From NCBI GenBank assembly GCA_902773925.1, contig CACYGI010000004.1, positions 62,001-126,000 of the forward strand: a DNA stretch of 64,000 bases. Direction: 5' to 3'. Source of the DNA: an uncultured Bacteroidia bacterium (lineage in GTDB: Bacteria; Bacteroidota; Bacteroidia; Bacteroidales; UBA932). Below, one piece after another: positions 6,648-59,058 of the stretch. Made by a program: the position numbers and the translations under genes. The notes under the pieces are model-generated. The model ran no database searches. It was given only the letters and a program-made list of their open reading frames with translations, and was not told where the DNA came from. Position 1 is the first letter of the stretch. Each line of letters starts with the position of its first letter.

Positions 6648-7760
6648 TTACTTTTTTGCTATCGTTTTGATGTACGCCTCGTATCGCCGTGCGACCTTCT
6701 CCCACACATACTGCGCCTCGACACGGGAGAAATTGGCCTCGCGCTGAGCCTCCAGCTCCTGCGGCGCGGCGATGCAATGCTCCACGGCCTGTCGGATATC
6801 CTCATCCGATTCGGGCCGCACCCAGACGGCGGTATCATCCTGCAGCACCTCGCGGTTGGCCGCTATATCCGAGGCGATGACCGGCAGGCGGTAACTCATT
6901 GCCTCAAGCAGCCCGATCGAGAGACCTTCGATGGTCGAAGGCAGGCAGAACGCATAAGCCGAGCGAAGCAGGGCATCTTTGTCGGCGCCATATACCGCGC
7001 CGGTAAATATGATCCGGGGGCAGCCGGCAGCCAGAGCGTGCAGCGACTCTACATACTGCGTGTCAGCGGGATTGGATCCTGCGATGACCAGCTGGAAACC
7101 CTCGTGCGCCGCAGCCCGAAAGCCGCGGATCAGATAATCGGGATTCTTGTCCTGCACTATGCGTGCCAGAAACAGGAAATACCGATGCGGCACAATGCCG
7201 AAACGCTCAAGGATATCGGAAGCGGGGGCCTCTTCCGGCGGCAGGTTGACCGCCGTAGGCATTGTCACCGCCTCGCGTCCATAACGCTCGCGGAAATAGT
7301 CGGTCTGCGCCTGGGAGCACATCAGCAGATGGCGGTTGGTATGGGCGGTAATGCGCTCCATCAGCTTCATCACGCGCTGCTGGCGCGGGGAATATTTGCT
7401 GCGCTGCCATTCCAGGCCGTGCCCCATCATCAGCGAAGGCACCCCGCCGATAGTGGCCAGCGGACTCCAGAGCGAAGGCGGCCACGCGTTATAGTGGATC
7501 AAGCTCACGCCTTTTTCGCGCAGCAACGTGCGCAAAGTGGCCTTGAGGCCCACCCAGGGCTTGCAGACAAGATTGCTCTTCGGTCCGCGCATATATATCA
7601 GCCGCACGCCGTTTTCCTCACGCACCTCGTTGTGGTCGCTCTCGCAATAGACCGTGCAGTCGTGTCCCATCCGGGCCAGGCAGCGGGTCAGATTGAACAT
7701 ATAGTTCTCAATCCCGCCGAGGAGGTGGATGTCGCGCGAACCTATGAAGATGATTTTCAC
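6648..7760 (-). CDS. Glycosyltransferase family 4 (GT-B fold)
   Basis: 370 residues. The start is GTG at 7760, directly abutting the stop of the radical SAM gene, giving MKIIFIGSRDIHLLGGIENY, a standard GT4 N-terminus with a Gly-rich loop. The C-terminal half has FCLPSTIEGLSIGLLEAMSYRLPVIASD in the position of the E-x7-E donor-binding motif (written here only to locate it by E residues of TIEG and LLEA). Retaining transfer of a hexose from a nucleotide donor to a lipid-linked glycan is the family role. Donor and acceptor are not predictable. Part of the radical SAM-GT4-NTP_transf_5-DUF4954 run. Confidence 0.9.
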   Translation of the reverse strand: MKIIFIGSRDIHLLGGIENYMFNLTRCLARMGHDCTVYCESDHNEVREENGVRLIYMRGPKSNLVCKPWVGLKATLRTLLREKGVSLIHYNAWPPSLWSPLATIGGVPSLMMGHGLEWQRSKYSPRQQRVMKLMERITAHTNRHLLMCSQAQTDYFRERYGREAVTMPTAVNLPPEEAPASDILERFGIVPHRYFLFLARIVQDKNPDYLIRGFRAAAHEGFQLVIAGSNPADTQYVESLHALAAGCPRIIFTGAVYGADKDALLRSAYAFCLPSTIEGLSIGLLEAMSYRLPVIASDIAANREVLQDDTAVWVRPESDEDIRQAVEHCIAAPQELEAQREANFSRVEAQYVWEKVARRYEAYIKTIAKK

Positions 7761-8792
7761 TTACCGAAGACCCTGCAGTTCGTTGTTGCCTACTTTATAG
7801 AACGGGATGCGCTGCGTATCGACGCGTCCGCCGCGAAGGACGGCCCACTTGTTGCGCAGGATCCACGGCGCGATCTGGCGCAGATACTTTTTCATCACCG
7901 GAGAAACGCTGCCTATCATCCAGCAGCTCTTGGGGCAATGCGCCACCTTGTCGCGGATGGCCGCGGCCTGCGGGCTGTTCCATATCTGCTCGAATGTGGC
8001 GTCATTCAGATTGCCCATCGTGCCGTACCAGCAGCTCTCTTCCATACCGTTGCAGGGCAGGATATTGCCGAAGGGATCGAGGAAGAAATTCTCGGTGCCG
8101 GCCTCGCAGGGAAGCATCCTCCGGCCGCCGTTGATATAGTTGATCAGGCCCAGGTTGAAGAATGCCCGCGCCCAGCTCTTGGGGTTGCGCTCCTTCATCA
8201 GCCGCTGGATCAGCTCGTCGAAATTGGCGCAGACCTCGTCGCGGTTGGTCACCTGATTGTCATACTTGTGGAAATAGAACGAGTTGTGGAAGCTTGCGGT
8301 GGCAAATTCCATCCCCAGATTCTTGCTCAGCTCGTAAAGATCCAGCATATCGCTGCTGTTGTTGTTGGAAACCGTAATGCCGAATCCGATATCACGGACG
8401 CCCATACGGCGCAGCTCCAGCAGCGTCCGGAGTCCCTTGTCAAATCCGCCCTGACGGCCGCGAAGATCGTCATTCTTGCAGCTCAGGCCCTCGATGCTGA
8501 TGCGGTAACCCACCTTCGGATGGCGGCGCGCCATCTCCAGCACTCTCTCGGGGAAGAAACCGCTCGTCGAGAAAACGATGCGGGAAGTCTTCTTCTCAAG
8601 CACCTTGACTATATCTTCGATGTCCTCGCGTACAAATGGCTCGCCGCCCGTGATATTGACCGAACGCATATGCGGCAGCTTCTCCAGCAGCGCCGGAGCG
8701 AACTCCTCCGAAGGCCGCGTCGGATTGTCCCAGATATTGCACATCTTGCAGTGCATCGGGCAGCGGTAAGTAACTATGACAGATCCGTCCAT
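7761..8792 (-). CDS. Radical SAM protein with SPASM-like C-terminal cysteines
   Basis: 343 residues. CPMHCKMC at residues about 11-18 is the CxxxCxxC that binds the radical SAM 4Fe-4S cluster, followed by NITGGEPFVRED, the SAM-binding GGE region. The C-terminal part has CEAGTENFFLDPFGNILPC and further cysteines (CPKSCW), typical of an auxiliary-cluster SPASM or twitch domain. The substrate is unknown; members in polysaccharide loci are usually unassigned. A -7 box 21 bp upstream and the 122-bp gap to the previous gene suggest that a separate transcript begins here and continues through DUF4954. Confidence 0.88.
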   Translation of the reverse strand: MDGSVIVTYRCPMHCKMCNIWDNPTRPSEEFAPALLEKLPHMRSVNITGGEPFVREDIEDIVKVLEKKTSRIVFSTSGFFPERVLEMARRHPKVGYRISIEGLSCKNDDLRGRQGGFDKGLRTLLELRRMGVRDIGFGITVSNNNSSDMLDLYELSKNLGMEFATASFHNSFYFHKYDNQVTNRDEVCANFDELIQRLMKERNPKSWARAFFNLGLINYINGGRRMLPCEAGTENFFLDPFGNILPCNGMEESCWYGTMGNLNDATFEQIWNSPQAAAIRDKVAHCPKSCWMIGSVSPVMKKYLRQIAPWILRNKWAVLRGGRVDTQRIPFYKVGNNELQGLR

Positions 8793-9883: not shown

Positions 9884-10965
9884 TCTTCCATAGGATTGAT
9901 GAATCTCGCGTATGCTGCCAGATATCTCTCCGCCGTCTCTCTGACATCGAAATGGTCCTGTACGTAACGGCGTGCATTGGCCAGCTTTTCTTCGCTGTCA
10001 TAATGGCTGCAGAGATTGCGGATAGCAGCGGCGCATGATGCGGCGCTACAGCTCTCGAACAGGTGTCCATAAGTACCTCCGACGGTCAATTCAAACGGGC
10101 CATCGGCATTGGATGCAACAACTGGCAGCATGGCTGCCATGGCCTCGATAACTGTCAGGCCGAAACCCTCCTTACGAGAGGCCATTATAAATGCATCGAA
10201 GTCCTTGAGATGCTCGAACATCTCTTCGTGTTCGAGATTGCCGGCCAAGAGAATCCTCTCCTCCTGTCCGGCCTCGCGTATAAGCGAGACTATCTTTTCG
10301 CGATCAGGTCCGTCGCCGTAAATGGTCAGGTGCAGATTCAAATCACCAAGCAGCGACAGGGCTTCTATTAGTATATCCTGCCCCTTTTGTTCAAGCAGCA
10401 GACGGCCGACTGTCACCATTCGCATCGGTGATTGCTCCATGTCCGGCCGGGAATACGGTCTGAGAGCAAACTTTTCGGTATGGATACCGTTGATGATAAG
10501 AGGCGCATCTATCATATAATCCCTGCGCAGAGCCTTCTGCACCGAGGAGGAAATGGCATAGACTGTCTTGAAATGCGGAAGGCGCTTATCCAACCTCTCG
10601 ACAAGATCCGGAAGACAATGCATCGTAAGGACGCATTTCTTCCTCAGACGCCAGAAAAGGATCGAGATAAGTCCGGCATCGTGACAATGGATGACATCGG
10701 GTGCGACCTTGAGGAGTATATGGTTGAGACGCAGGATCGGCAGTGGATTGCGGCTTGCTGGCCTGCGGCGCAGGCATATCACCTGCACTCGAGAATCAAC
10801 GTGAGAAAGAAGTTCTTCGTTGATGATATCGTTGACCACTATCAGCGTGACACTGTGCGAAGCCTCAACCTGAAACCGCGTAATATCAAGCAGCATCGTC
10901 TCGATACCGCCGGTCTTATATCCCCACACAAGGTGAACTATCTTATATTGTGCGCTCTCTTTCAT
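9880..10965 (-). CDS. Glycosyltransferase family 4
   Basis: 361 residues. KIVHLVWGYKTGGIETML is a GT4 N-terminus; MVTVGRLLLEQKGQDILIEA and FIMASRKEGFGLTVIEAMA contain the domain-linker VGR and the E-x7-E donor-binding motif. The gene begins inside the last 23 bp of the polymerase gene and ends in an ATGA overlap with the GT2 gene, so it belongs to the same minus-strand operon. The role is addition of one sugar to the repeat unit at the cytoplasmic face of the membrane; specificity unknown. Confidence 0.88.
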   Translation of the reverse strand: MKESAQYKIVHLVWGYKTGGIETMLLDITRFQVEASHSVTLIVVNDIINEELLSHVDSRVQVICLRRRPASRNPLPILRLNHILLKVAPDVIHCHDAGLISILFWRLRKKCVLTMHCLPDLVERLDKRLPHFKTVYAISSSVQKALRRDYMIDAPLIINGIHTEKFALRPYSRPDMEQSPMRMVTVGRLLLEQKGQDILIEALSLLGDLNLHLTIYGDGPDREKIVSLIREAGQEERILLAGNLEHEEMFEHLKDFDAFIMASRKEGFGLTVIEAMAAMLPVVASNADGPFELTVGGTYGHLFESCSAASCAAAIRNLCSHYDSEEKLANARRYVQDHFDVRETAERYLAAYARFINPMEE

Positions 10966-12337
10966 TTTCGTTTTTTTCTGGCAGGTCTTCCCTCTTGGAG
11001 CGAAATACCCACGCCATCATCAGCGAAGTGAAGAAGAGCGGAAATCCGGCCTCGAAGAAGACTGAGTCAAATGTATTGATAAAGTAGAGGATAAATATCG
11101 GGACGACGATGCGAGCAGTTGACCGTGCCCGCCAGGCCACGATAAAGACCATAATGAACAGCAGCAGATGGAGCGCGGTGCCGACCCAGCCGTAACGCAA
11201 TACAACGGGGACCCAGGCGATATCTCCACTGTCTATCTGACATCTCTGCCCCACTTTTTCAAGATTTTCCGTGCCGAGCAGAAAATCGAAACGATTGGCG
11301 CAGGCCGGAGAGTCTTCGTGGATTGCCCCTACTCCGAAAGCAGCGTACTGAGGATAATCCGAGAGGTACTGGATACGCTCGGCGAGCATCGCGATACGGA
11401 AGGTCAGGGTACCGGAATTGAATGAATACAGATCGATATTCTCAATATCCGTCGCCACCTGCGTAATATCCTCTACGGTCGTAGTGCTACGGACGCTGGA
11501 TTTTGTCCTGAAGACCCCCATCACGAAGGGCAGCATCAGCACAACCATCACCAATCCTGTAATCACCGTGCGACGGCTGCCTTCACGGATGAAGAATATC
11601 AGCAGGGCCACGAGCAGAGCTATGAGGATGGCCCGGACGAACGTCAGCAGGACCAGCACGAACAGGAACAGGAATATGGCATAGCGCCACTTGCCGTACT
11701 TGCGTGCCTTGAGCACGTAAAACAGATAGAAGTACGTCAGGTTGGGGATATTGAGCGCGAAATTGAAACCCTCGCTGGCGACTTTCTCCTTATCATAACC
11801 CGTCAGGATATGAATACCCACGAACTGAAGCAGGTACAGGAGACCCTGTAACAGAGTGATGTAAAGTCCAATCTCGAAAAATCTTTCGTATGCCTTGAAA
11901 GGAATGGCGCGGAATGCGAAATATCCCATCATCATCAGACTTATGCGGACGACCTTGAATGCATACGAAAGGGAGTCCGCGTTGCTCGTTACCGTTGCGA
12001 TAAACTCACCCAGATAGAAAAGAAGGAATACGAACACGTACAAGGCGAACGGATCGAGACGGGGGGAATATCCGAGCACAGAACTACGGCTGAACTGACT
12101 TCCGTCAGGCATAGTCCTTGTGATGCGAAGTCGTCCGGACTGGACCTGGACAAACGGGATGAGCGCCAGATTGATGAGAATGCAGACGTCACTGCAGCGC
12201 TGGTGCTCCGTCGTGCCATCGAGCATAAAAAGCTGAGAGACGATGGCCAGATAGCACAGCAGGAATACGACGAACTGCCTCTTCCAGAACGCCCAGACGG
12301 CCACGGCCGCCAACAGAAGATAGACCGCCAGCATCAT
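10943..12337 (-). CDS. O-antigen ligase / polymerase-like membrane protein (Wzy-like)
   Basis: 464 residues from ATG 12337, which overlaps the flippase stop by 4 bp (ATGA). The frame is open further upstream, but that part overlaps the flippase and looks like shadow sequence. Multiple hydrophobic segments are visible (MMLAVYLLLAAVAVWAFW, FVVFLLCYLAIVSQLFML, FLFVLVLLTFVRAILIALLV and others), with a large loop before the last helices that contains many polar residues (ENLEKVGQRCQIDSGDIAW). This topology fits Wzy/WaaL polymerases, which join repeat units in the periplasm. Sequence conservation in this class is poor, so the call rests on topology and the neighbouring flippase. Confidence 0.75.
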   Translation of the reverse strand: MMLAVYLLLAAVAVWAFWKRQFVVFLLCYLAIVSQLFMLDGTTEHQRCSDVCILINLALIPFVQVQSGRLRITRTMPDGSQFSRSSVLGYSPRLDPFALYVFVFLLFYLGEFIATVTSNADSLSYAFKVVRISLMMMGYFAFRAIPFKAYERFFEIGLYITLLQGLLYLLQFVGIHILTGYDKEKVASEGFNFALNIPNLTYFYLFYVLKARKYGKWRYAIFLFLFVLVLLTFVRAILIALLVALLIFFIREGSRRTVITGLVMVVLMLPFVMGVFRTKSSVRSTTTVEDITQVATDIENIDLYSFNSGTLTFRIAMLAERIQYLSDYPQYAAFGVGAIHEDSPACANRFDFLLGTENLEKVGQRCQIDSGDIAWVPVVLRYGWVGTALHLLLFIMVFIVAWRARSTARIVVPIFILYFINTFDSVFFEAGFPLFFTSLMMAWVFRSKREDLPEKNENERERTI

Positions 12338-13710
12338 TTTGCCCAGATGCCGGTTGCCTTGCCGGATAAAAGACGCCCAAGCTGGATGCGGCCGGCGATG
12401 GCCTGTACCAGATAGACCAAAGTAGGAAATACGACAATCCCGGCTGTACCAAGTCGGCACGAGAAAGTGAGAAGCGGCCAGGCGATCAAAGCCGAGATGA
12501 GATAAATCGTCATCTGTATCTGGATTGTCCCAAGGCCAGCTATCAGATAAGTGTAGAGATTGCCTATGACCGTGATAATCGTATAGAATCCTACCGCAGC
12601 CGTCAGTATAAGGTCCACCTGCACCTGATCTCCGATCCATATATGATAGAACCATCCTGAAATGGCCACCATCACCGCTCCTATGACTGCCGCAACGATG
12701 CAGAAACGCTCCAGTTTATGAAGAGTATTGTACATCCAAACCCTGTCATTACGGTGCCACGCATCGGTAAATGCCGACCAGAATGGCGTGATGACAATCA
12801 GGCTTCCAGAGAACAGCAGGTTGAAGTAGCGGCTCGCCACGTTATAACTGGTCACCGCGTCCGGTCCAAGCTCGCGGAGCAGCACGAAGTTGATAAGCTG
12901 GAATACCACGAGCATCGAGATGTATATCACGAAGAACCGAATGCCGAGCGAAAGGATATCCTTGATCAGACCCGTGCGGATATTGCGGCGGCGCGGCGCG
13001 TATGCGCGATAGCGCGTGAAGCGGAATGCGATTAGAGAGCACGTCAGCAGTACGATGCACGGCACTCCGGAGAAATACAGGGCAAGATTGGTCAGGCTGC
13101 CGGTGGTGGTCTTTGTCAGGATGAAAATCACCCCGAGCGAGCAAAGCTGCCCGAAGCCGTTGATAGCTGCGGCAATCCCCGGCTTCTGGTCGGCGGTCAG
13201 AAGCATGCTGAAATTATTGACTACCATATTAAGGCAGAAAAAACCGCCTACGACTCCGAAAACGCGCTGCAGCTCCACTCGATACGAAGCATCGACATTG
13301 AGGACTGCAGGCCAGTCGATGAAGCAGTTGAGCACCATGAAGAGCACGAACACACCAGAGATAACCGCGCCGACGGCGAAATAAGTCGTACTCACGTATT
13401 CGGCGGCAAGCTGCTCATTACCCTTGGCCCTGGCTTCCGCAAAACAGTTGCGGAAGCCGTTGCCAAGCCCCAGATCGAAGAACGCTATCCACGCAATGAT
13501 GGACGAGACCGTCATCCATATACCGTACTGCGTAGGATTGACGTAGCTGATGGTCATCGGTACGAGCAGCAGCGAAGTCAGCACCGTGACACACTTTGTC
13601 ACCAGAGAAAGGATTATATTGCGAAGAGCGGCTTTCGAACGCGGGTTGCGATCGGCGATGAGCGTCCTTATGCGGAGCGGCAGCAGATCTGTCAGGCGGT
13701 TAAAGCTCAT
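12334..13710 (-). CDS. Oligosaccharide flippase family protein (Wzx-like)
   Basis: 458 residues with about 12-14 hydrophobic helices. The N-terminal KAALRNIILSLVTKCVTVLT and PTQYGIWMTVSSIIAWIAFFDLG match the start of polysaccharide flippases of the MATE/MVF superfamily, which move undecaprenyl-diphosphate-linked repeat units to the outer face of the inner membrane. The gene overlaps the upstream WecA-like gene by 11 bp and the downstream polymerase by 4 bp, so initiation, export and polymerisation genes are contiguous. Confidence 0.85.
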   Translation of the reverse strand: MSFNRLTDLLPLRIRTLIADRNPRSKAALRNIILSLVTKCVTVLTSLLLVPMTISYVNPTQYGIWMTVSSIIAWIAFFDLGLGNGFRNCFAEARAKGNEQLAAEYVSTTYFAVGAVISGVFVLFMVLNCFIDWPAVLNVDASYRVELQRVFGVVGGFFCLNMVVNNFSMLLTADQKPGIAAAINGFGQLCSLGVIFILTKTTTGSLTNLALYFSGVPCIVLLTCSLIAFRFTRYRAYAPRRRNIRTGLIKDILSLGIRFFVIYISMLVVFQLINFVLLRELGPDAVTSYNVASRYFNLLFSGSLIVITPFWSAFTDAWHRNDRVWMYNTLHKLERFCIVAAVIGAVMVAISGWFYHIWIGDQVQVDLILTAAVGFYTIITVIGNLYTYLIAGLGTIQIQMTIYLISALIAWPLLTFSCRLGTAGIVVFPTLVYLVQAIAGRIQLGRLLSGKATGIWAK

Positions 13711-14902
13711 CTTCTATATTCTCATTCTTGTCTAGTCTGCTCTGGACTGACTTCCAGACGCGTGAACTGTCAAGTCTGGTATAAGAGGCCGCTGTATGAA
13801 GGCGACGGAAAAACCGGGTATCGTGGTCGCGATGCCAGCCAAGGAACAGCGCCGGCAGGAAAACTGAGACTGCACCGGCAGCAATCACTGCATAGAGCTG
13901 GACTTCCTGAGTGGCGCCGCGGCTCCAGACTACTGCCCATACGGCTACCGGAACGAGCGCCAGGACAATCTCCGTAAGTGTCACTGCCAAATGGGATAAT
14001 CCGGCATCGATAAATATGTGGTGAAGATGGGTCTTGTCCGCCTTGAATGGAGAAATGCCCCTCACGATCCTGCCGGTCATCACCCTTAAGGTATCAAATA
14101 CGGGCAGCGTCAGCACGGCAAGGCAGAAGGGGATCATTCCGAAATTGAAAGTCAGATATTCCTCGTAATATGACTCATACCGGCACATACTGAAGACCAT
14201 CGATGCTAGGATGGTACCCATCAGCATTGTCCCAGCATCGCCGATAAACATCTTACTGTGATGCCCGAAGACATTGTGCACGAAGAACGGGATCAGGGCA
14301 CCGATCGTCACCATCGCCAAGGCCGCGAACGAGTAGTCGTGCCCGACAAAAAACACCGTAGCGAACAAAGCGCAGGCTGTGATGCAGTAGCCGGAAGAAA
14401 GGCCATCCACGCCGTCGATCATATTGATGGCGTTGATGATGCCAACCATTGCGAAAGCCGAAAATGGCACGGAAATCCAAGTTGGCAGATGGTCGATGCC
14501 CCAAATTCCCTGGAAATTGCAGATAGTAAAACGCGTGCCATAGATCAACAGCAGCGCAACGACAGTCTCGACTGTCAGCCGCACCCAAGGCTTGATGGTC
14601 AGCAGATCGTCCATCATTCCGACATAAAGCATAACGATCATCGCTCCCAATACGGCAAAAAGGCTTGTATAAGACATCATTGTCTTGAAGTAGCACAAAC
14701 CCACGACGATGCCCAGAAAGACGGCTGCGCCTCCGAGCACCGGGACCGGATTGTGCTGTAATTTGCGCTGTCCGGGCCGGTCCATAAGGCTGTTCCGCCG
14801 GGCAATGTTAATAAGAGGCACGAAAGCCACCCACGACACCACCAGCGCAATCACAAGCAATGTCAGCATACGGTACTTCGGTGCGAAGCCAAGATCAAAC
14901 AT
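13700..14902 (-). CDS. Undecaprenyl-phosphate sugar-1-phosphate transferase (MraY/WecA/TagO family)
   Basis: 400 residues, polytopic. Diagnostic segments are NMIDGVDGLSSG (catalytic Asp loop), FIGDAGTMLMG and HLHHIFIDAGLSH (the His-rich loop). These place it in the polyprenyl-phosphate N-acetylhexosamine-1-phosphate transferase family, closest in pattern to WecA/TagO. It starts the lipid-linked repeat unit by transferring a sugar phosphate to undecaprenyl phosphate. It overlaps the flippase gene by 11 bp. This appears to be the intact initiating enzyme of the window; a second family member at 59842-60887 is broken. Confidence 0.88.
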   Translation of the reverse strand: MFDLGFAPKYRMLTLLVIALVVSWVAFVPLINIARRNSLMDRPGQRKLQHNPVPVLGGAAVFLGIVVGLCYFKTMMSYTSLFAVLGAMIVMLYVGMMDDLLTIKPWVRLTVETVVALLLIYGTRFTICNFQGIWGIDHLPTWISVPFSAFAMVGIINAINMIDGVDGLSSGYCITACALFATVFFVGHDYSFAALAMVTIGALIPFFVHNVFGHHSKMFIGDAGTMLMGTILASMVFSMCRYESYYEEYLTFNFGMIPFCLAVLTLPVFDTLRVMTGRIVRGISPFKADKTHLHHIFIDAGLSHLAVTLTEIVLALVPVAVWAVVWSRGATQEVQLYAVIAAGAVSVFLPALFLGWHRDHDTRFFRRLHTAASYTRLDSSRVWKSVQSRLDKNENIEDEL

Positions 14903-14956: not shown

Positions 14957-15907
14957 CTATCTGACAGATAGGATCCAACCCGCAGGCATCAGAAGCAGCA
15001 CAAGACATTTTCGATACCACCCCCTCACGTCATGCAATATCTGGTAAGGTTTCTTTCCGATTATAAAACCGTCGCGGCTGATTCCGACAAGAAATGCCAT
15101 GATCTGCTTCGGGTCATAAATGAAATACTTGAGCAGATTATTGACACCATACAGCCACCAATAGTAATTTGCTGAAGCGCGATTATGACTTTTGGCGGTA
15201 AGGGCATTATCCGTGTCGTGGAAATATATGCGCCCGGGCCGGTCCACAACTCTTTCGAGATACTTCTTGCCTATCTCGAACCAGACTATGTTCTCTGGAC
15301 AGAAACGCGTATCGGAAGTCAATTCGGGGAACGGGAACGCACGCATAAGATCTGTTCTGGTAAAGCCGAAATTCTCGCCGCTGATATGATACTTGAACCG
15401 CAGATCGGGAGTGTACACATCAAGGGGTGAGACGGGAAGCGGGCGTCCGGTAATCTCACCCGTCAGATCATCTATACAGCGCAATACCACCCCCTTATAA
15501 TTCTCCTTATCAGGTATGGCCTGCCATTCTTGATAAAAAGACACAACGGCATCGGGAAGCATCACGTCATCGCTGTCCATCGTCAGGAAAACTTCAGACT
15601 CACTGACGCTCACGGCAAAGTTTGTGGCGATATGCTTACCCCTGTTTTCCTGATAGAAATAACGGATAGGCAGGCGGTCTTCATCGCACCATCTGCGTAC
15701 AAGTTCTTCAGTTCCATCAGTGCTCCCGTCATTGACAATCACCCACTCAAACAAATCACAGCCGCATACCTCCTTATTGCGTAGCAATGACTCATACAGC
15801 CGAGGCATCGTCGCATCGCGTTGGTAGGCGGGAGTAAAAACAGTCATCCACGGCTTCCTGAATTTCAAACCCGATTCACTTGCGAAACTTCTTCGGTCAC
15901 TCGACAT
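14957..15907 (-). CDS. Glycosyltransferase family 2
   Basis: 316 residues from ATG 15907; a TTG two codons upstream is less likely. The GT-A core is clear: WMTVFTPAYQRDATMPRLYE, then WVIVNDGSTDGTEELV and VFLTMDSDDVMLPDAV with the DxDD metal-binding motif. It transfers a sugar from a nucleotide donor by inversion. It sits between the AT-rich beta-helix gene (18-bp gap) and the WecA-like gene (54-bp gap), all on the minus strand. Confidence 0.9.
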   Translation of the reverse strand: MSSDRRSFASESGLKFRKPWMTVFTPAYQRDATMPRLYESLLRNKEVCGCDLFEWVIVNDGSTDGTEELVRRWCDEDRLPIRYFYQENRGKHIATNFAVSVSESEVFLTMDSDDVMLPDAVVSFYQEWQAIPDKENYKGVVLRCIDDLTGEITGRPLPVSPLDVYTPDLRFKYHISGENFGFTRTDLMRAFPFPELTSDTRFCPENIVWFEIGKKYLERVVDRPGRIYFHDTDNALTAKSHNRASANYYWWLYGVNNLLKYFIYDPKQIMAFLVGISRDGFIIGKKPYQILHDVRGWYRKCLVLLLMPAGWILSVR

Positions 15908-15925
15908 AAGCAAAAACTATTCAGA

Positions 15926-18484
15926 TTAATATACGGCGAGACGTGCCAGTGACTCAATAATGGGAGAATTCTTGATTTCATCCTCATCTGAAATCTCGAC
16001 AAATTCTGAGAAGGAATCACCCGTCTCTGTGCGATATAAGTCTATAGCTCTCAAAACCGCCTCATCGTATGTATTACAATTGGGTAACCATGAGGTACTA
16101 TCCGAAGCTACCGGGTAATAAACAATGGTGTTTGAAGGAACAATATTACATAGTAAAGAACCTTGTTTAACATAGAAAACATTTCCTCTTAGAAAATCCA
16201 CGCAGGCACTACTATGCCGATAATATGTGCCTCTGCCACCATAGAAAACATTTTTGCCAATATACATTCCAGAAACACCAGACAATAAATTAGCATCTCG
16301 TATTTCTGGAGAAAACATTTCATTATCTCCACAACCCACGCATATGTTTTCTATAAAAAAGCAATTTGCCAAAGGGAAATTATTATTACTGGCTTTTGAA
16401 CAAAAGGACTCATAAGCTTGGCGGCATTTAAAAAATAAATTGCCGCGAAATACAATATTTTCAGCCCCACAAGATGCTGTTGCGGCATTTGTTAGAAAGC
16501 CTTGAATGGTCGCCCCACAATCAAAAACACGTGATACTTTACAGTGCTCCACAATAATGTTATTGGGCTGAATTGAATCATCAATCCAGAATTCTATACC
16601 ATTACCCCATCTAACATAGTTATTGGTTCCATCGTTTTGAGAGCAACCCCCTATCAAATCAATCTCAATGTTATGAAGTTTGATTTCAGATCTATCTCCA
16701 GCTGCAAGAATTCCAAAGTTATAGCCCTCAATCCGTACATCAGACACTTCACAATGACTAACCTTCAAGGCTGCATTATCAGAAGAATCAACAAATCTAC
16801 TGAAAAACAATTGAGAAAAATCTTCTCCGATAGTACCGTCATATTTTAAATACAAAGTATTCCCATCCTGCATAAAGTCACCACTATTATTCAGCCAAGA
16901 ATAGCCCTGTGGATTTGTTCCTTGGTAGTTGCTTGCATCTGATTGACTATAGTAGTTAACTTTATGTCCAAAAACTATAGAGTCAGTCTCGGGGTTATAT
17001 ATAAAACCGATATTATGGTTCATAAACGAATCACCAAGTTGCGCTAAATTTAGCCCATAAATATGCTTCTCAGAATCCACAAGAGTAAATGGTCCAGTAT
17101 TATTAATTCCGGAAAGGATGGCAAAATGAGATAAACACGGCTTTTTCCCAAATGAATAACTGGATAAATTAATATTCTCTAAAACAATAGAACCTTCATT
17201 GCGGAAAATATCTCCTCTTTTCAATTTAATTGTTTTTCTACTCTCACTTCTATTGCTCAATAAGTTCAAAGCAGCATGAACTGTCCTGAGTGGAGAATCC
17301 TCCGATAGTCCAGTATTAGTATCATTCCCTTCAGAAGACGAACAATAACAGACAACCTCTTGAACCTTTTCCAAAAGATAATCTACCTTTTCTTTCAAGA
17401 CATCAAGATCATGCCTATTCTCAAAAACAAACCCGGGTACCAATTCAGTGGTTACATTAAACTTCACATGCCCGACAAAGGAATCTCCAGATCGAAAATA
17501 AACAAAAAGAAAAGAAATAGGGGCATTAAAAGAATAAGTCAAGTCAAATGTCTCATCTTCCTCGTGAATAAAAAGGGGGACATCACTAATACTGTCATTG
17601 CCATCATTCAAGTGAATTTCAGCGCGTAGCCCAGCAACAAAGGAACTTGATAATGCATTTTTTTTGCCAACAAAATGCACTTTTTTTCCATAGTTTCCAT
17701 TAGGTAATGTGAGCAGAAATCTGTTATATCCACTGCCACTTGAATCAATATCGGCATCAAATGAATAACCATAATTAAAAAGGTTAGCATTATTCAATTT
17801 TTTTTCGACCGTTTTGATTGATTCAAAAATCCTAGAACATTCACAATATGTAATATCCTTATCCGCTGCAACGATACCTATTGAGATGAAAGTCGCCCCA
17901 TTTGATAACAAATCGGACACACTCAATTCGACTCTATTGACTCCCCAATTTGAAATATTTGATAGGAATTGTCGATTTGTATTTAAACTATTTATTACTG
18001 CTCCGCTGTTACCAATTCCATCAATAATAATCTTATTTGCATTTATGCTCAATAGATTGATCATAGCGGAACACATTATACCCCAATGACTAATCGTGCC
18101 ATCAGACTGAATATATTCTCCAACCACAAAGTCCGGAAGCTCACTAACATATGTTCTTTCAAAGCAATCCGTAACAATCTCATTGTATTTTGTGTCCTTC
18201 AAACACAATGGTATTGATTGCTTAGACCAAGCAGACGAGTACAAAAATAGAGCGAATTCCCCACTTTCAAGTAAAAGTCCTGAAAAATATGAATAAACGC
18301 CCTCGGTATATGCTATATAAAAAACTTTCTCATCTGGTTGCCCTGGATTTGTAGTTGGGTAAGCAACTCCTTTAAATTGCCATCCTGAACCCAGGTCTTG
18401 TACCATTTCCAACAATACATTTTTTTGTATTGGGTCAGAAATCATAGAATTAATATCACTGTACAAAGAAGAATAATTAGACAT
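15926..18484 (-). CDS. Beta-helix protein with phage-tail-like N-terminal domain
   Basis: 852 residues, no signal peptide or membrane helix. Residues about 30-75 (GWQFKGVAYPTTNPGQPD, then KVFYIAYTEGVYS) resemble a module I know from tail fibre proteins of Bacteroides phages. A long beta-rich part follows, then a probable short coiled coil near residue 360 (LKEKVDYLLEKVQEV), then EGNDTNTGLSEDSPLRTV at about 390, a common entry into right-handed parallel beta-helices, with Asn-rich rungs to about residue 800. The gene is clearly more AT-rich than its neighbours, suggesting transfer. No phage genes flank it; it lies between glycosyltransferases. A capsule-acting, tailspike-like or scaffold role is speculative. 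Confidence 0.7.
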   Translation of the reverse strand: MSNYSSLYSDINSMISDPIQKNVLLEMVQDLGSGWQFKGVAYPTTNPGQPDEKVFYIAYTEGVYSYFSGLLLESGEFALFLYSSAWSKQSIPLCLKDTKYNEIVTDCFERTYVSELPDFVVGEYIQSDGTISHWGIMCSAMINLLSINANKIIIDGIGNSGAVINSLNTNRQFLSNISNWGVNRVELSVSDLLSNGATFISIGIVAADKDITYCECSRIFESIKTVEKKLNNANLFNYGYSFDADIDSSGSGYNRFLLTLPNGNYGKKVHFVGKKNALSSSFVAGLRAEIHLNDGNDSISDVPLFIHEEDETFDLTYSFNAPISFLFVYFRSGDSFVGHVKFNVTTELVPGFVFENRHDLDVLKEKVDYLLEKVQEVVCYCSSSEGNDTNTGLSEDSPLRTVHAALNLLSNRSESRKTIKLKRGDIFRNEGSIVLENINLSSYSFGKKPCLSHFAILSGINNTGPFTLVDSEKHIYGLNLAQLGDSFMNHNIGFIYNPETDSIVFGHKVNYYSQSDASNYQGTNPQGYSWLNNSGDFMQDGNTLYLKYDGTIGEDFSQLFFSRFVDSSDNAALKVSHCEVSDVRIEGYNFGILAAGDRSEIKLHNIEIDLIGGCSQNDGTNNYVRWGNGIEFWIDDSIQPNNIIVEHCKVSRVFDCGATIQGFLTNAATASCGAENIVFRGNLFFKCRQAYESFCSKASNNNFPLANCFFIENICVGCGDNEMFSPEIRDANLLSGVSGMYIGKNVFYGGRGTYYRHSSACVDFLRGNVFYVKQGSLLCNIVPSNTIVYYPVASDSTSWLPNCNTYDEAVLRAIDLYRTETGDSFSEFVEISDEDEIKNSPIIESLARLAVY

Positions 18485-18792
18485 GGCGGTAGTATTTATT
18501 ACTGAAAAAATCCATTAATAATAAATTATCTAACAGTTATTTAGCAAAAAAGGATCGTAGAAAAATAATCTCTTAACAGCTTAGTTATCTGAATATCCAG
18601 CTTACCACTATATCTGAAAGCAAACTATTACTTGGTATTCTATGTATCATTTTGCTCTATCTAACGAGCCAGTTATTTTTCCATCAGCATATTATTGACT
18701 TTCGTCTCAATGCGAATATAGGACATTATTTTAAGAAAGCCAAAGACTGAGATAATTAATCGAGTCCTGAAAGATCAAAAAGATACGCGGTA
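18485..18792. other. AT-rich intergenic gap in the polysaccharide locus
   Basis: 308 bp between the beta-helix gene and the upstream GT4. It is as AT-rich as the beta-helix gene, so both probably arrived together. I found no ORF of note, no exact TAnnTTTG box on the minus strand and no strong hairpin. Confidence 0.5.
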
Positions 18793-19992
18793 CTATCCTA
18801 TTACCTCTTCGTAGAAATCAATCAGGCGATGGTATACCTTCTCTTCGGAGAAATGGTCTTCGAAGAAGCGGCGGGAACCTGCCGAAAGGGATGCGTAGTC
18901 CTCGTCAGACAGAGCGGCGAGACGCTGTGCGGCTGCAAGAAGGCCTTCGGCGTCACAAGGCGGAAAAAGGTATCCGCTCTCGCCTTCGCTGACGATTTCG
19001 GGGATACCGCCGATCGTCGCTCCGATGACAGGCTTGCCGGCGGAGTACGCCTCTATGATTGAAAGTGGATTGTTCTCGTACCACTCGGAAGGTACGATAA
19101 CGCAGCAACAGTTACGCAGCAGGGAAGAGAGGTCCTCACCGGTACGATAGCCGCAGAATTCGATATTTGACATACCGGCGGCACGAGCACGGAGCTCATC
19201 CTCAAGTGGTCCAGTACCTACCACCTTCAGACACAGGCCGGAGTCCCGTCTGAATGCCTCGATCAAGGTATGAACGCCCTTTTCGCGCGAGAGGCGGCCG
19301 CAGAAGAGGAAGTAATCCCCGCGACCGACCTCCGGTGCCGAACCCTCAGGCAGGCAGTTATATATGATGCAATGCCTTGTCCCCGCAAAGCCGGAATCGT
19401 GTGCCAGATGACGGTCGTAAGCGAACCGGCTTACGAAGTGAAAGCCTCCGATCAGCCGCCTCGGATTGAAAAACCAGCGACGTAGGTACATTTCGAAAGT
19501 CATCAGCAGGCTCTGAGGGAGACTGCCCTTGGCGCAGCGATGCTTCAGGCATGGCATGAAATTACCTTCCGTGCATCTTTCGCATACGGCACCGGTACCA
19601 TCCATGAACAGATATCCGGGACATACCAGCCGGTAGTCGTGGACAGTATGGACTACCGGGATATGATGACGGCGCAAGACCTGCAGTACCGCTGGAGAAA
19701 GTCCGCCCCATATCAAGTGAACGTGTGCGATATCGGGCTTCTCCATCTCGAGCAGACGCTCCAGCGCCCTTGCAGCACGGCGGTTATAGCAGTATGATAT
19801 TGCTGATTCTATAACAGATGAAGGCCTACGCGGAAAGAACTCCGACTGGGCGCAAGGCAAGTTGCGCTGGTCAGCGAAACTGAACCAAAGCACCTCGTGA
19901 CCATGAGCCGCAAGCAACCGTCCCGTCTGGAAATAGACGGTCTCCGAACCACCACGGCGGTAGTGGTAATTATTAATCAGGAGTACCTTCAT
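18793..19992 (-). CDS. Glycosyltransferase family 4
   Basis: 399 residues. MKVLLINNYHYRRGGSETVY is a typical GT4 N-terminus; FLFCGRLSREKGVHTLIEAF and NNPLSIIEAYSAGKPVIGA carry the linker Arg/Lys and the donor-binding Glu motif. A Cys-rich middle segment (CERCTEGNFMPCLKHRC) is common in this subgroup and could bind a metal. It is the first gene of the locus in transcription order, separated from the rest by the AT-rich insertion-like segment. Confidence 0.88.
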   Translation of the reverse strand: MKVLLINNYHYRRGGSETVYFQTGRLLAAHGHEVLWFSFADQRNLPCAQSEFFPRRPSSVIESAISYCYNRRAARALERLLEMEKPDIAHVHLIWGGLSPAVLQVLRRHHIPVVHTVHDYRLVCPGYLFMDGTGAVCERCTEGNFMPCLKHRCAKGSLPQSLLMTFEMYLRRWFFNPRRLIGGFHFVSRFAYDRHLAHDSGFAGTRHCIIYNCLPEGSAPEVGRGDYFLFCGRLSREKGVHTLIEAFRRDSGLCLKVVGTGPLEDELRARAAGMSNIEFCGYRTGEDLSSLLRNCCCVIVPSEWYENNPLSIIEAYSAGKPVIGATIGGIPEIVSEGESGYLFPPCDAEGLLAAAQRLAALSDEDYASLSAGSRRFFEDHFSEEKVYHRLIDFYEEVIG

Positions 19993-40957: not shown

Positions 40958-41101
40958 ATGAAAAACAGTAAATTACAAAAAGAGGATGTTGTAGGGCGGT
41001 TCTACACTCCTCCAGTCTGCAGGTTTTTTTATTTCGAACCCGGACAATTTATGTGTGTCAGTCAAACAGAGCCCGTCGGAGAAATCGAGGGTGAATGGTA
41101 A
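40958..41101 (+). CDS. Small ORF upstream of the BspA-like lipoprotein
   Basis: 47 residues: MKNSKLQKEDVVGRFYTPPV, one Cys, FFYFEPGQF, another Cys, ending GEIEGEW. It overlaps the first ATG of the lipoprotein gene by 7 bp. No signal peptide. Same position and size as the small ORF at 37422-37571, and the downstream proteins share an N-terminal domain, so this is a repeated gene-pair arrangement. Function unknown. Confidence 0.55.
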   Translation: MKNSKLQKEDVVGRFYTPPVCRFFYFEPGQFMCVSQTEPVGEIEGEW

Positions 41102-43077
41102 AAATGAGTAAAAAAATGAAAAACTCTTTGATTTGCAGTGTTTTGGTAGTTATTGCCATCACTGCGGGTTGCCAAGAAAAACAAGAAATACTTATCCGGG
41201 AAGAATCAAAAGTATTCATAGCTACGATAGAAGATGATAATGAAAGGGAAACAAAGACTTCCCTTGACGGGGAAGGTAATGTGCTATGGAAACTTGGAGA
41301 CCAGGTGAGTATCTTTGCCGGGAGTACCATCAACGAACAATATCAGGTTACCGATGCCTCTGACGGGAAGACCTCAGCTACTTTGAACAGGGTCACCAGT
41401 CCCGGATTTGTTGCAGGAACTGATATAGATAACAACGTGGCTTTCTATCTCTACGCTTCAACAGCAGGTATTGCAAAGAAAGGAAGCGGCTATGTCATCG
41501 GAGACATAAGCCTTCCCGCGACCCAGAACTATGCGGCAGAAAGTTTTGGCAATGGGGCTTTTCCTATGGTAGCAGTGACAAGCACCGCAGAGGATATGAA
41601 ACTGAAGTTCAGGAATGTCCTTGGCGGCTTGAAACTCCAATTAAAAGGAACCGTCACCATTACCTCCATCACCGTGACGGGCAACAATGATGAAATCCTC
41701 TGTGGTGATGCTGAAGTGACCGCAACCTATGGTGGAATTCCATCCATCAGCCTTTCTGATGCCTCTGCAAAGACTGTCACCCTGGATTGTGGTGAAGGGA
41801 TTACTCTTGATCCGGAAACGGCAACTCCCTTTATCATTGCCCTTCCACCTATGACAATGACTAATGGGTTCACCGTGGTTGTGACTGACTCTGAATCCAG
41901 GCAGATGGAAATCAGGACCACAAAGACCCAGACCATCCCACGATCAAGCCTTGTGAAGATGCCTGTTGTGTTATATACTGGGATAAAAACAGCCTGTGAT
42001 TCTTTTAAACCTTTTACCATTACATCAACAGGAAGTACATCCGTATCAATTGCAATGGTTGGTACTCCATATTCTGTCGATCTTGAATATAAGTTAGGGG
42101 CAGGAGAATGGACCGCATATACAATTGGTTCCACCATAGATTTGGAAAATGGAGAGTCGTTGCAATTCAAAAAACGTTTTGGGGAAAATGTTTTTTCAAT
42201 GAGCAGGGGTGACTATTACAAGATTGTCGTCGACGGGCCCGGGAGCGTGGAAGTATCAGGCAACATAATGTCACTGATAGACGGGAGTATGGAGGCGCTT
42301 ACCCTAAATTACTCTTGTATTTTCTACAGGTTGTTTGACAGGTGCACAAGACTAACCGGTGCAGCCAACCTTGTTCTGCCTGCTACGACATTGTCCCGAT
42401 CTTGTTATGAAAGTATGTTCTATGGTTGCACGGGTCTTGAAACAGCACCTGAGTTACCAGCTACGACATTATCTGTATGCTGTTATTATGCGATGTTCTT
42501 TGGTTGTACAAGTCTTACTGCCGCCCCGATAGAACTTCCGGCCACCACACTGGCAGATTATTGTTATCATGGGATGTTCTATGGTTGTACAAGCCTTGAA
42601 ACAGCACCTGAATTACCTGCCACCACATTGGCAGAGTACTGTTATTATGCTATGTTCGTCGGTTGTACAAGTCTTTCTTCTGCACCCAGGGTACTTCCTG
42701 CCACAACATTAAAACCCCATTGTTATGAATTTATGTTCTGTAGTTGCGCGAGTCTTGAAACAGCTCCTGAGTTACCCTCCACTACACTGGCAGAGCATTG
42801 TTATGAATATATGTTCTTCTGCTGCTACAGCCTGACCACTGCCCCGGAACTTCCGGCAACTACTTTAGTTAATGGCTGTTATTATTCTATGTTTAGTTAC
42901 TGCAGCAATCTGAGGTATATAAAAGCATTATTTACCACCTCACCGGAAACGGCCTATACAGGTTGGTGGGTTGATGGCGTCGATCCGTCCGGCACATTTG
43001 TAAAGAGTAGTTCAGCGTCCTGGGATGTGACTGGTATTCACGGTGTTCCTTCTGGCTGGACGATAGAAACAGAATAA
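41095..43077 (+). CDS. BspA-like repeat lipoprotein with fimbrillin-like N-terminal domain
   Basis: 660 residues from ATG 41095; ATG 41104 is an alternative. A lipobox ITAGC follows a hydrophobic helix. Residues about 50-300 are fimbrillin-like (KTSLDGEGNVLWKLGDQVSI), matching the N-terminus of the endonuclease lipoprotein. Residues about 423-607 are seven tandem repeats of 26-27 residues of the form LPATTLAxYCYxxMFxGCTS followed by LxxAPE, each with conserved Cys. These BspA-type leucine-rich repeats usually bind host or microbial surfaces. The gene is more AT-rich than its neighbours and lies between inverted repeat copies, which suggests acquisition. Confidence 0.85.
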   Translation: MVKMSKKMKNSLICSVLVVIAITAGCQEKQEILIREESKVFIATIEDDNERETKTSLDGEGNVLWKLGDQVSIFAGSTINEQYQVTDASDGKTSATLNRVTSPGFVAGTDIDNNVAFYLYASTAGIAKKGSGYVIGDISLPATQNYAAESFGNGAFPMVAVTSTAEDMKLKFRNVLGGLKLQLKGTVTITSITVTGNNDEILCGDAEVTATYGGIPSISLSDASAKTVTLDCGEGITLDPETATPFIIALPPMTMTNGFTVVVTDSESRQMEIRTTKTQTIPRSSLVKMPVVLYTGIKTACDSFKPFTITSTGSTSVSIAMVGTPYSVDLEYKLGAGEWTAYTIGSTIDLENGESLQFKKRFGENVFSMSRGDYYKIVVDGPGSVEVSGNIMSLIDGSMEALTLNYSCIFYRLFDRCTRLTGAANLVLPATTLSRSCYESMFYGCTGLETAPELPATTLSVCCYYAMFFGCTSLTAAPIELPATTLADYCYHGMFYGCTSLETAPELPATTLAEYCYYAMFVGCTSLSSAPRVLPATTLKPHCYEFMFCSCASLETAPELPSTTLAEHCYEYMFFCCYSLTTAPELPATTLVNGCYYSMFSYCSNLRYIKALFTTSPETAYTGWWVDGVDPSGTFVKSSSASWDVTGIHGVPSGWTIETE

Positions 43078-54005: not shown

Positions 54006-56264
54006 TTACTGTCCCAACAAACTGGAGAACATTTCACTATATGAATTGTCTTTTGAGGACCTTGATTGATAGTATGACCCCCGAGCCCAATCTTCGTCTC
54101 TTTCATCATATTCAGGCTCTCCTGAAAAACGGGATTTTGCCTCATCCACTGCCCCCTCCCAGATATCAACTCTCATCCTAGGTATCTTATCCGCAAGAAG
54201 GGAAGCTGTTCCTCCTATCATATCACATTCCTCTTCGCTAGTGGCAGATTCCAATTCTGCCTCCAATGAACTTTCTACTCTTTCTAACAACTCATCGCAT
54301 TCCAAGGCTTTCTGACCGAATTCAGTCATTTCCAGCAAATCCAAGATATTGACAAAATCATCCGACCAGTCTGCTTGTTCATATACGACAGCTGAAAGAT
54401 GTTCTAAATCCAGTGCATTTCTATCTCCCTTATCTAGACGATCAAGGAGCGTCATTCTGTCCAAAAGGCTATACTTGCTGCATTCAAGAAAGTTTTGGCC
54501 AACAACAGCACTTACCAACTGAGGATTATTCTTAAAGAGAGTTGTAAAAGTATCCTGCATCTTTACGATATAACCTGCAAGAGAAGTGCTTTCTCTCACG
54601 TACAATGATCCGGATTCCTTCAAAGTACATAGCCGGAAATGGGCAATGGCATATTCATACGCGCCAATTACAGCGGGATAAAGATTAGCTGTAATTTTAA
54701 TCATCCTATGAAAATCTGTTGATGGTAAATCCGAGAAGGTGTTGTATACCTGGTCTGCAAATAGTGCATTCTTAATCAGCATACTTTGCACATCCTCATA
54801 CGCTCTAACTTTATCAAGCAAATAATCAAATACTGAAGGATTATGAAAACCTGTTATGAGAGAAGTCATATGTCTTGAAGTGAGGACAAAAGTACCTTCC
54901 AACATCTTTAACGTTTCCTCCCAAGTCATTTCAGTGAGTGAGAGTGACAATTCACCAGATGTCCTATTAATAAAAAACTTCACAGCCGAATACCACTCAT
55001 CATTATACACGGGCCCATTCCCCATGGTCATTCTGATAAATAGAGCATATTGCGCCAGCTGTGGCATGTTACAGAAAGCGTAATCCCATACTGAATTAGG
55101 ATGCTCAAAGAAATCCAAGAACTGTTGAACAAAACTGGTCGGAGAAACCTGAAGGTATAGTTGCTTGTTCAGGAATGCTTCAATGATTCGGGGATTAAAA
55201 TTCTTATGCTTGATGAGTCTCAAGTATCGCGAGCCCAAAAGAAGTTGGCGAATATACTCTATAGGTATTTCTGCTTCCGCCAGATGGTTATACAAGATAT
55301 GCGCCCGAACTTCCTCTGTGTAATCTTCCAAATCTATCGTACACTTAGCCAACTCTATGTTTCTCACAGCAAAATGCTCATATTGCCTCATAGCTGACTT
55401 TAAGATGTATTCTCGGGTTGAAAGAATAAACAATTTGTCCGGCTTATGACGGATCGCATCAATGAACCGTATTACTTTGCTTTCAAAACCATCCTCAGTT
55501 ACATTAAAGTAGTTCGCTCCGAGAAAATCATCGAAAAAGAATACTTGTCTCTTCCCTTCAACCATCTTTTCAGCGGCGTCATCCATAGTATATACCCTGA
55601 TGGCTTCTTCATAATCCTCTCCCAGAAGTTTATAAACAAGCATTCTCGCTAAAGTTGTCTTTCCTATGCCGGGAATACCAGATATAATAACGAACCGGTT
55701 CTTCAGTAGAATGGACATCGCTTCATTAAAGCTGTCATTCATCACGTAGGTTGCGATATCTCTTCCTATCTCTTCGCGTTCAAAACCCGACCAATTCTCT
55801 ATACGACGATGAAGAATCCTCTCCATCACATTCGTACTCCCAATCCATAGCTTATAGTACTGATCCTCTATGTCATGAAACTGACCGAGAAGATTGTTGA
55901 TATCTTCTCTTCCAAGAATGTCTGTAGTATTAAGGATGAACGGCGCAAATAGATTGGTGATTTCATCCTTGTTCCCGGGAGTCAGTCCAACTGAAGTTGA
56001 AAGGATATAACGCTTGGGATTGAGACGCCTAACCTTTTCAACCTCCTGCTTTAAAACCCTCAATAACGAATCATAGTCTTTATAGCGCTTTGCCTGAACA
56101 ATAGTCGTACTCCTATGCGACGCACAAGCGAACCGAAGATCAATTCCATTATCGCGCCCAGAAGTAAAACTCTCGATGAATATACTCTCCCTTTTCTGGA
56201 GAAGATCCCTTGTGAGGCATTCAAACTCGTTGGGCTGAAGTATTTGGAAGTCGTACTCAAGCAT
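54006..56264 (-). CDS. Mrr-like nuclease fused to STAND NTPase (nSTAND3-type), probable defence protein
   Basis: 752 residues. The N-terminal 130 residues form a restriction endonuclease-like domain: SGRDNGIDLRF has Asp42 and IVQAKRY has Gln58-x-Lys60, the QxK form of Mrr nucleases. A P-loop NTPase follows with GIPGIGKTT (residues 196-204) and a Walker B VFFFDDFLGA near 241-250. The remaining ~450 residues are helical without recognisable repeats and may sense a trigger. This order resembles Avs-type STAND defence proteins, where target binding activates the nuclease, though it is shorter. AT-rich and flanked by gaps, so it appears to stand alone. Substrate and trigger are inferred. Confidence 0.78.
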   Translation of the reverse strand: MLEYDFQILQPNEFECLTRDLLQKRESIFIESFTSGRDNGIDLRFACASHRSTTIVQAKRYKDYDSLLRVLKQEVEKVRRLNPKRYILSTSVGLTPGNKDEITNLFAPFILNTTDILGREDINNLLGQFHDIEDQYYKLWIGSTNVMERILHRRIENWSGFEREEIGRDIATYVMNDSFNEAMSILLKNRFVIISGIPGIGKTTLARMLVYKLLGEDYEEAIRVYTMDDAAEKMVEGKRQVFFFDDFLGANYFNVTEDGFESKVIRFIDAIRHKPDKLFILSTREYILKSAMRQYEHFAVRNIELAKCTIDLEDYTEEVRAHILYNHLAEAEIPIEYIRQLLLGSRYLRLIKHKNFNPRIIEAFLNKQLYLQVSPTSFVQQFLDFFEHPNSVWDYAFCNMPQLAQYALFIRMTMGNGPVYNDEWYSAVKFFINRTSGELSLSLTEMTWEETLKMLEGTFVLTSRHMTSLITGFHNPSVFDYLLDKVRAYEDVQSMLIKNALFADQVYNTFSDLPSTDFHRMIKITANLYPAVIGAYEYAIAHFRLCTLKESGSLYVRESTSLAGYIVKMQDTFTTLFKNNPQLVSAVVGQNFLECSKYSLLDRMTLLDRLDKGDRNALDLEHLSAVVYEQADWSDDFVNILDLLEMTEFGQKALECDELLERVESSLEAELESATSEEECDMIGGTASLLADKIPRMRVDIWEGAVDEAKSRFSGEPEYDERDEDWARGSYYQSRSSKDNSYSEMFSSLLGQ

Positions 56265-56787
56265 AAAAAAACTCGGTTAAATAGTCTCTTTGGCGACCAT
56301 CATCTATCAAATCATAATCAGTCTTTTCAATAACAGCCTCGTCTGCTTTTATAGGTATTGTAATCCACCAAATGATAATAAAAAAGAATACTATTATGGT
56401 GTGAATAAGTTAATAATAGCTTCCATTAAGCACATACTCTAATCCAATAATAGCAATGAGTAAAGTAGCCACCAAAACTATTACCCCTGGTCTTTCAATT
56501 CTTTTCTTTCTGGAAAACGAAAACACTTATTGCAATCAGAGTTAGTCCACATTATTCTATTCTATTCTATTCATTACCACGGGGCCCAAAAAAAACTGAT
56601 CATTTCATTAATTCTCCTCAGCATATTTCCCTCACTGTTGGACTAACGCAAACAAATCCAGAACAGTAGTGTCAAACTTAAGAGGGGAACTGCGCTATTA
56701 TCACACATAGTATCTTTATTACAACAGGGAACGATAATCTTTATATTGACTGTAAATAGATGTCAGCGGCCAAAAAGGACAAGATAT
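56265..56787. other. AT-rich intergenic region
   Basis: 523 bp between the STAND gene and the three-gene operon. No supported gene. It holds a short (ATTCT)3 microsatellite at 56554-56572 and no exact TAnnTTTG box on the minus strand close to 56264. Confidence 0.5.
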
Positions 56788-57645: not shown

Positions 57646-57649
57646 ACCA

Positions 57650-58780: not shown

Positions 58781-59058
58781 TAATTCTTCATCCAATCCCA
58801 GAATGATCTTGGTAACCATCCTTGATAACGCTTTTCCGTAATATCCACAACGAAAATACGATCCTTGGCATCCATTGTTTCTCGGAGTTGTGTGGTAATC
58901 TCGTCAACTGACGCAGAATCATTCACCTTGACCATCCAAGTGGATTCAAGGGGATGCTGCCAACCATTCTCCCCTGCGAGTGTTTTTATCAACTCGTAGA
59001 GTTCCGTATAATTACGGCCGGGCTGCTTCAAATCATAAGTAATCAAAAACAATTTCAT
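58780..59058 (-). CDS. Orphan Cas2-like / SinR family protein
   Basis: 92 residues from ATG 59058, supported by a -7 box 19 bp upstream. MKLFLITYDLKQPGRNYTEL is the first ferredoxin-like strand and loop of the Cas2/VapD-like family (Tyr8-Asp9); HPLESTWMVKV, KDRIFVVDI and QGWLPRSFWDW complete the pattern of the orphan Cas2-like group often labelled SinR. No cas1 or CRISPR array is in the window. It is the first gene of a three-gene operon with a DUF3696 ATPase and an unknown protein. Nuclease or nucleic-acid-binding activity is possible but unproven. Confidence 0.8.
   Translation of the reverse strand: MKLFLITYDLKQPGRNYTELYELIKTLAGENGWQHPLESTWMVKVNDSASVDEITTQLRETMDAKDRIFVVDITEKRYQGWLPRSFWDWMKN

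Follow-up and report, generated by a model that had tools for sequence, protein, structure and literature searches.

The window, the 64-kb stretch of DNA analysed here, carries within a capsule or exopolysaccharide (EPS) locus a gene whose product joins the tail-anchor module of phage receptor-binding proteins to a right-handed parallel β-helix. The arrangement is likely to have arisen by capture of a whole tailspike gene of a Bacteroidota siphophage into the EPS locus, at the slot that a native secreted β-helix protein holds in relatives. This reading draws together a phage anchor that begins at residue 1, an enzyme end from the family typical of the slot and a foreign base composition that is uniform along the gene. 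Before capture the gene was probably a phage tailspike.

Gene and locus

The open reading frame starts with ATG, encodes 852 amino acids and keeps the boundaries given in the original prediction (Table 1). The window is part of a 280-kb contig from a draft genome of 1.72 Mb in 10 contigs. The capsule or EPS setting proposed earlier is borne out by the neighbouring genes on the minus strand, which encode Wzx-like, Wzy_C and WecA-like proteins, several glycosyltransferases (GTs) and a radical SAM protein, together with further GTs and a nucleotidyltransferase. The 852-amino-acid protein as a whole has no match among the Pfam, NCBIfam or PADLOC models, and a PDB search with the single tailspike sequence gave none.

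Table 1. Features of the chimeric tailspike gene and its EPS locus (window coordinates)
Feature	Position	Strand	Basis
Chimeric tailspike gene, 852 aa	15926..18484	-	ORF, module matches, structure model
Siphophage tail-anchor (receptor-binding-protein N-terminal) module, residues 1-97	18194..18484	-	PHROG/phage matches
Middle part, residues 98-356, poorly predicted	17417..18193	-	Partial phage receptor-binding protein matches
Likely trimeric coiled-coil neck, residues 357-378 (LDVLKEKVDYLLEKVQEVV)	17351..17416	-	Clean a/d heptad helix
Right-handed parallel β-helix, residues 379-852	15926..17350	-	Homology, AlphaFold, Foldseek
AT-rich cassette with sharp edges (ORF and 308-bp upstream intergenic), 31-37% GC	15926..18792	.	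GC profile
Promoter-like site, Bacteroidales-type, TTTG-N20-TATATTCG, upstream of tailspike gene; one mismatch to -7 consensus	18713..18744	-	
GT4 glycosyltransferase directly upstream of tailspike gene; homologues flank stand-alone β-helix genes elsewhere	18793..19992	-	
GT2 glycosyltransferase, 12 nt downstream of tailspike gene	14957..15913	-	
WecA-like initiating sugar-phosphate transferase (PF00953)	13700..14902	-	
Wzx-like flippase (PF01943)	12334..13710	-	
Wzy-like polymerase / O-antigen ligase domain, Wzy_C (PF04932)	10943..12655	-	
Radical SAM/SPASM protein; conserved companion of β-helix gene in related loci	7761..8792	-	
GT4 glycosyltransferase, second; conserved companion of β-helix gene	6648..7760	-	

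N-terminal anchor module

Residues 14-93 match the family PHROG_36068 (E=2.7e-10), and residues 1-97 match proteins of the cultured phages Alistipes AS73P1, Parabacteroides PD491P1 and PDS1, and Croceibacter P2559Y (E values from 2e-10 to 6e-6). In the Alistipes, Parabacteroides and Croceibacter phages the module forms the start of proteins of 1,123-1,256 amino acids encoded by the last tail gene, and the gene order in the cultured phages is tape-measure gene, large tail gene, gp59 (a PHROG tail fiber family), module gene and then holin/lysis genes. A scan of IMG/VR found the module on 48 viral contigs. In 41 of the 48 loci gp59, the cognate tail gene, lies upstream of the module gene, either adjacent, overlapping or no more than about 430 nt away. 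The C-terminal ends placed behind the module vary, with GDSL/SGNH esterases in 11 of 38 and phosphoesterases, GDPD, M14 peptidase, fibre repeats and one β-helix among the others. The GC content of these receptor-binding-protein genes lies below that of the rest of the contig in 40 of 48 cases (range 34.7-50.6%), a range into which the window gene fits. Judged by these similarities, residues 1-97 are the classic exchangeable receptor-binding-protein anchor of Bacteroidota siphophages, and they sit at residue 1 in the window protein as they do in the phage proteins. The original prediction of a phage-tail-like N terminus is confirmed by both the cultured phages and the viral contigs.

The module did not prove to be common in non-phage capsule loci. 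It was found in 4 of 399 genomes of the family and 2 of 392 genomes of the order, the window's own copy counted, and the clear other cases are prophages, one with an endolysin-type neighbour (G356) and one in which the cognate tail gene adjoins (G508). Two further genomes, G395 and G288, gave weak or atypical matches. The lack of gp59 in three loci (L040, L054 and L057) raised the suspicion that they too were bacterial; their gene content is without EPS pointers and appears to resemble that of other phage types.

Middle part and neck

The structure of residues 98-356 is poorly predicted, and the first ~140 residues of this part match some phage receptor-binding proteins (loci L042/L043 and L063). 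The helix leading into the β-helix, residues 357-378, has a clean a/d heptad pattern over residues 360-378 and is likely a trimeric coiled-coil neck. Anchor, middle part and neck would all be parts of a phage tail, and the protein is expected to fold as a trimer.

β-Helix end and its bacterial family

The AlphaFold model of residues 369-852 is a right-handed β-helix with a pLDDT of 85.6 and a pTM of 0.89. Foldseek ranks GH136 lacto-N-biosidases at the top, followed by other β-helix glycosidases (GH110), the Klebsiella K1 capsule lyase and the HK620 tailspike, in keeping with the tailspike-like β-helix originally proposed for the remainder of the protein. The likeness to GH136 (LnbX, ErGH136) consists of the best Foldseek match (E 4.6e-9) and of sequence similarity over the N-terminal cap, for which the best profile gives E 1.9e-13. 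Membership of GH136 was rejected, with a TM-score of ~0.35 at 11% identity, a sequence alignment confined to the ~70-residue N-terminal cap and no Pfam or NCBIfam match.

A search of 84,980 genomes for relatives of the β-helix yielded 175, and the best 80 of the 175 places were retained. The closest relatives come from gut Bacteroidales and Opitutales and are stand-alone proteins with a signal peptide, not phage proteins. Those among the family genomes are likewise stand-alone, the closest having ~470-490 amino acids, and for three of them the surrounding EPS locus encodes radical SAM and GT proteins similar to those of the window (radical SAM, for example, 59% and 50%). Within the best 80 of 175 relatives, the Bacteroidales members of the closest clade are often found among Wzx, GT4, radical SAM and nucleotidyltransferase genes; the Opitutales members have other neighbours, such as one DUF4838 gene. 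A homologue of the GT4 flanking the tailspike gene directly adjoins the stand-alone β-helix gene in at least 9 loci. By homology and gene context, the β-helix is a member of a bacterial EPS-locus or secreted family rather than a generic tailspike helix, a point missed by the original prediction, and the tailspike gene occupies the usual slot of this family beside the same GT4. The polar residues Asp-609, Asn-628, Glu-631, Arg-652, Asp-655, Gln-661, Gln-689 and Glu-692, conserved in the stand-alone family, are kept in the window protein, and several glycine and tryptophan positions of the family have drifted. In the tree of the β-helix the window protein lies on a long branch without a resolved placement.

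Native members of the family, secreted by gut Bacteroidales, probably trim or bind the EPS of their own producer. The window protein is likely to be EPS-active as well, its β-helix cutting or binding the EPS made by this type of locus. The original prediction held that a host-kept tailspike could process or bind the capsule of its own cell; a tailspike-type protein is indeed present in an EPS locus with an enzyme end from a family typical there, and action on this type of capsule or EPS is plausible because the family is found in such loci.

No relative of the window β-helix was found among the cultured phage records, none of the 48 viral proteins with the N-terminal module carries it and profile searches of the viral contigs with the β-helix gave distant matches only. 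One of these lies in a P2-like phage (L190:5355-10371; IMGVR_UViG_3300028588_000143), in which Baseplate_J and Tail_P2_I are directly followed by a 1,030-amino-acid protein that begins with the family β-helix and is a putative tailspike, apparently of an unannotated type. The position of this distant relative indicates that the β-helix fold does serve as a spike. The viral contigs yielded no close relative of the whole 852-residue protein. The exact chimera was not found in any phage among the viral contigs and phage records, and a phage carrying it enters the proposed route as a presumed intermediate.

A second β-helix protein of the family without a signal peptide is encoded in an EPS locus of Muribaculaceae bacterium Zag1 (L117:14782-16464). 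Its gene is AT-rich, with 36.7% GC compared with 45-57% around it, and is preceded by TupA ATP-grasp, GT4 and ATPgrasp_ST genes. The ~115-residue N-terminal part of the protein has no phage protein match, and a suspected likeness to the middle domain of the window protein was not significant. It is possibly a parallel case to the window gene.

Base composition and proposed route of capture

The tailspike gene has 36% GC and a GC3 of ~29%. Sugar-coat genes next to it have 48-60% GC and 55-78% GC3, so that the tailspike gene is AT-richer than the surrounding glycosyltransferases, as had been noted. The GC3 values of the four protein parts, from the anchor to the β-helix, are 28.9, 29.8, 28.4 and 29.4%. 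This uniformity over all domains indicates that the gene arrived as one finished chimera, and no part of it looks native. The edges of the AT-rich patch coincide with gene boundaries, from 15926 to ~18800. The segment shows no convincing insertion repeats, and no remnants of the phage gp59 gene were found in the upstream intergenic region. The composition has not been ameliorated, which suggests a recent arrival.

The full chimera is present in one genome only of the 399 in the family. In a sister species (G039), whose radical SAM protein is 95% identical, the assembly breaks at positions corresponding to ~14604 and ~19397 of the window, on both sides of the segment. The gap extends from within the WecA-like gene to within the GT4 gene (G039:C25 and G039:C62), with the GT2 gene and the tailspike slot missing. 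Within the genus, the GT2/tailspike segment may be variable.

A mis-joined phage fragment of 2.9 kb in the contig would also produce a sharp GC step and a chimera seen in a single genome, and the assembly is a draft in 10 contigs. Such an artefact is nonetheless very improbable: the contig is 280 kb long, each junction within it coincides with a gene boundary, the next open reading frame is 12 nt away, and the enzyme end comes from the family that this slot would predict.

For the capture of a tailspike gene, the following route is proposed. A phage would have fused a β-helix from an EPS locus to its own tail anchor and so gained a means of attacking hosts coated with EPS. The chimera would then have been put beside the GT4 gene by recombination, perhaps of the phage version with a β-helix gene already resident there. 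Recombination with a resident homologue is a postulated step that would explain the exact slot.

The foreign composition, the occurrence in a single genome and the missing export signal described below are equally features of a gene with no function, left between two GT genes by a recent chance recombination, inactive and due to decay. The assembly breaks around the segment in the sister species are compatible with such a variable site. This is a possible reading of the present role, held back by the improbability of a random landing in the exact slot of a homologous enzyme, by the intact open reading frame and by the conserved residues that have been kept.

Search for phage genes in the window and genome

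In agreement with the original prediction, no other phage gene lies near the tailspike gene: none of the other open reading frames of the window matches any open reading frame of 52 phage-derived loci at E<=1e-4, and the tailspike open reading frame has 51 matching places in these loci at this threshold. The gene is not in a tail operon behind gp59, there being no phage gene in the window and no gp59 in the genome. The genome also contains no contractile sheath (Phage_sheath_1), no Terminase_6N and no second N-terminal module, by a test that comprised three family or profile searches and the module and leaves room for other kinds of phage-like particle. The suggestion that the protein is delivered by a tailocin encoded elsewhere lacks support because neither a cognate tail gene, a sheath, Terminase_6N nor a second module is present.

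Export and present role

The best 12-residue hydropathy at the N terminus of the window protein is 0.8, whereas 31 of the 32 stand-alone relatives reach a signal-like value (at least 1.6). The open frame upstream of the ATG extends by ~10 residues at most. The absence of a signal peptide reported originally holds, and as far as the sequence can indicate the protein has neither Sec nor Tat export and is probably not exported. Lacking an export signal, it would stay in the cytoplasm and reach the EPS only once the cell lyses or as part of the tails of phages of the matching family.

The locus may instead keep the tailspike as a domesticated enzyme that trims or cross-links its own EPS, reached by a non-Sec route of some kind or when a few cells lyse. 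The canonical EPS slot next to a GT4 that the relatives share, the intact frame of 852 codons, the conserved polar residues and the promoter-like site upstream are all consistent with such use, as are the AT-rich Muribaculaceae gene described above (L117, no signal peptide) and the precedent of WceF, knockouts of which increase stewartan chain length (PMC7949094). The missing signal peptide sets the protein apart from 31 of 32 stand-alone relatives, from WceF (Tat) and from Vibrio cholerae RbmB; the unameliorated composition suggests a recent arrival and only one of the 399 family genomes has the gene. Domestication is accordingly put forward tentatively.

A third reading takes the cytoplasmic spike to be built into infecting phages with matching tails, altering the adsorption of their progeny, as defence or as an exchange of host range. 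The protein carries the complete position-1 anchor of a widespread phage family, is cytoplasmic by sequence and has an enzyme end from a family found with the gene set of this locus. This reading is unlikely, as the searches for gp59 and a second N-terminal module found no cognate prophage in the genome and the protein is absent from the PADLOC models. That the EPS locus encodes such a spare spike on purpose, matched to its own coat, so that a swap of receptor-binding proteins would redirect or disarm the progeny of phages with the same anchor, is less likely still. All three roles are compatible with the origin as a captured tailspike; a decaying gene and a domesticated enzyme are about equally probable and both exceed the spare spike.

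Comparison with known systems

By this comparison the closest precedent for the window gene is WceF of Pantoea stewartii (PMC7949094). This stewartan hydrolase, whose gene belongs to the EPS cluster, is a trimeric β-helix that carries a P22-like head domain as well as a Tat signal. In WceF and the window gene alike, a phage-type N-terminal domain and a β-helix enzyme end are encoded inside an EPS cluster. WceF differs in its Tat signal, its P22-type head domain, its homologues in many Pantoea species and its shown activity, whereas the window gene has the anchor of a Bacteroidota siphophage, no export signal, a foreign composition, an occurrence in one genome and secreted stand-alone relatives. 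RbmB of Vibrio cholerae, a predicted β-helix lyase of the biofilm polysaccharide VPS of the species with a predicted signal peptide (PMC11637428), is similar in being a predicted β-helix enzyme for the exopolysaccharide of its own species and differs from the window protein in the predicted signal peptide, the lack of a phage module and its PL6-like lyase character.

The last tail genes of the Parabacteroides, Alistipes, Bacteroides and Croceibacter phages share with the window gene the N-terminal module at position 1 and modular enzyme C termini. The phage genes of PHROG_36068 differ in lying in tail operons, usually after gp59, and in carrying the window β-helix in 0 of 48 cases. Secreted proteins from Bacteroidales EPS loci (for example L102, L105, L107, L109 and L111) have a β-helix ~26-37% identical to that of the window protein and the same GT4 and radical SAM companions and slot, but they are ~460-490 amino acids long with a signal peptide, no phage module and a composition near that of their neighbours.

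One β-helix family appears in three guises: as a secreted enzyme of EPS loci, as a P2-like putative tailspike and as a phage-anchored chimera in an EPS locus. Bacterial enzymes that trim their own coat and phage spikes that penetrate it, usually discussed apart, are linked here. The exchange of coat-cutting enzymes between host and phage, proposed for Pantoea WceF, becomes traceable in gut Bacteroidales, and the window protein is a concrete candidate for asking whether a host-encoded spike enters phage tails.

Other features of the window

An AT-rich block at 54006-58819 encodes an nSTAND3/Mrr-like protein (PADLOC PDC-S73) and an ATPase pair of the NsnB/NsnC type, and is likely an anti-phage defence island ~35 kb from the tailspike gene. 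At 59842-60887 a second WecA-like Glycos_transf_4 protein is spread over two overlapping open reading frames (profile positions 119-155 and 4-106) and is probably frameshifted or decayed; it adjoins a Schlafen/AlbA_2 gene. A 660-amino-acid open reading frame at 41095-43077, with ~45% GC, is foreign-looking compared with its surroundings and has a weak match to BspA-type leucine-rich repeats.
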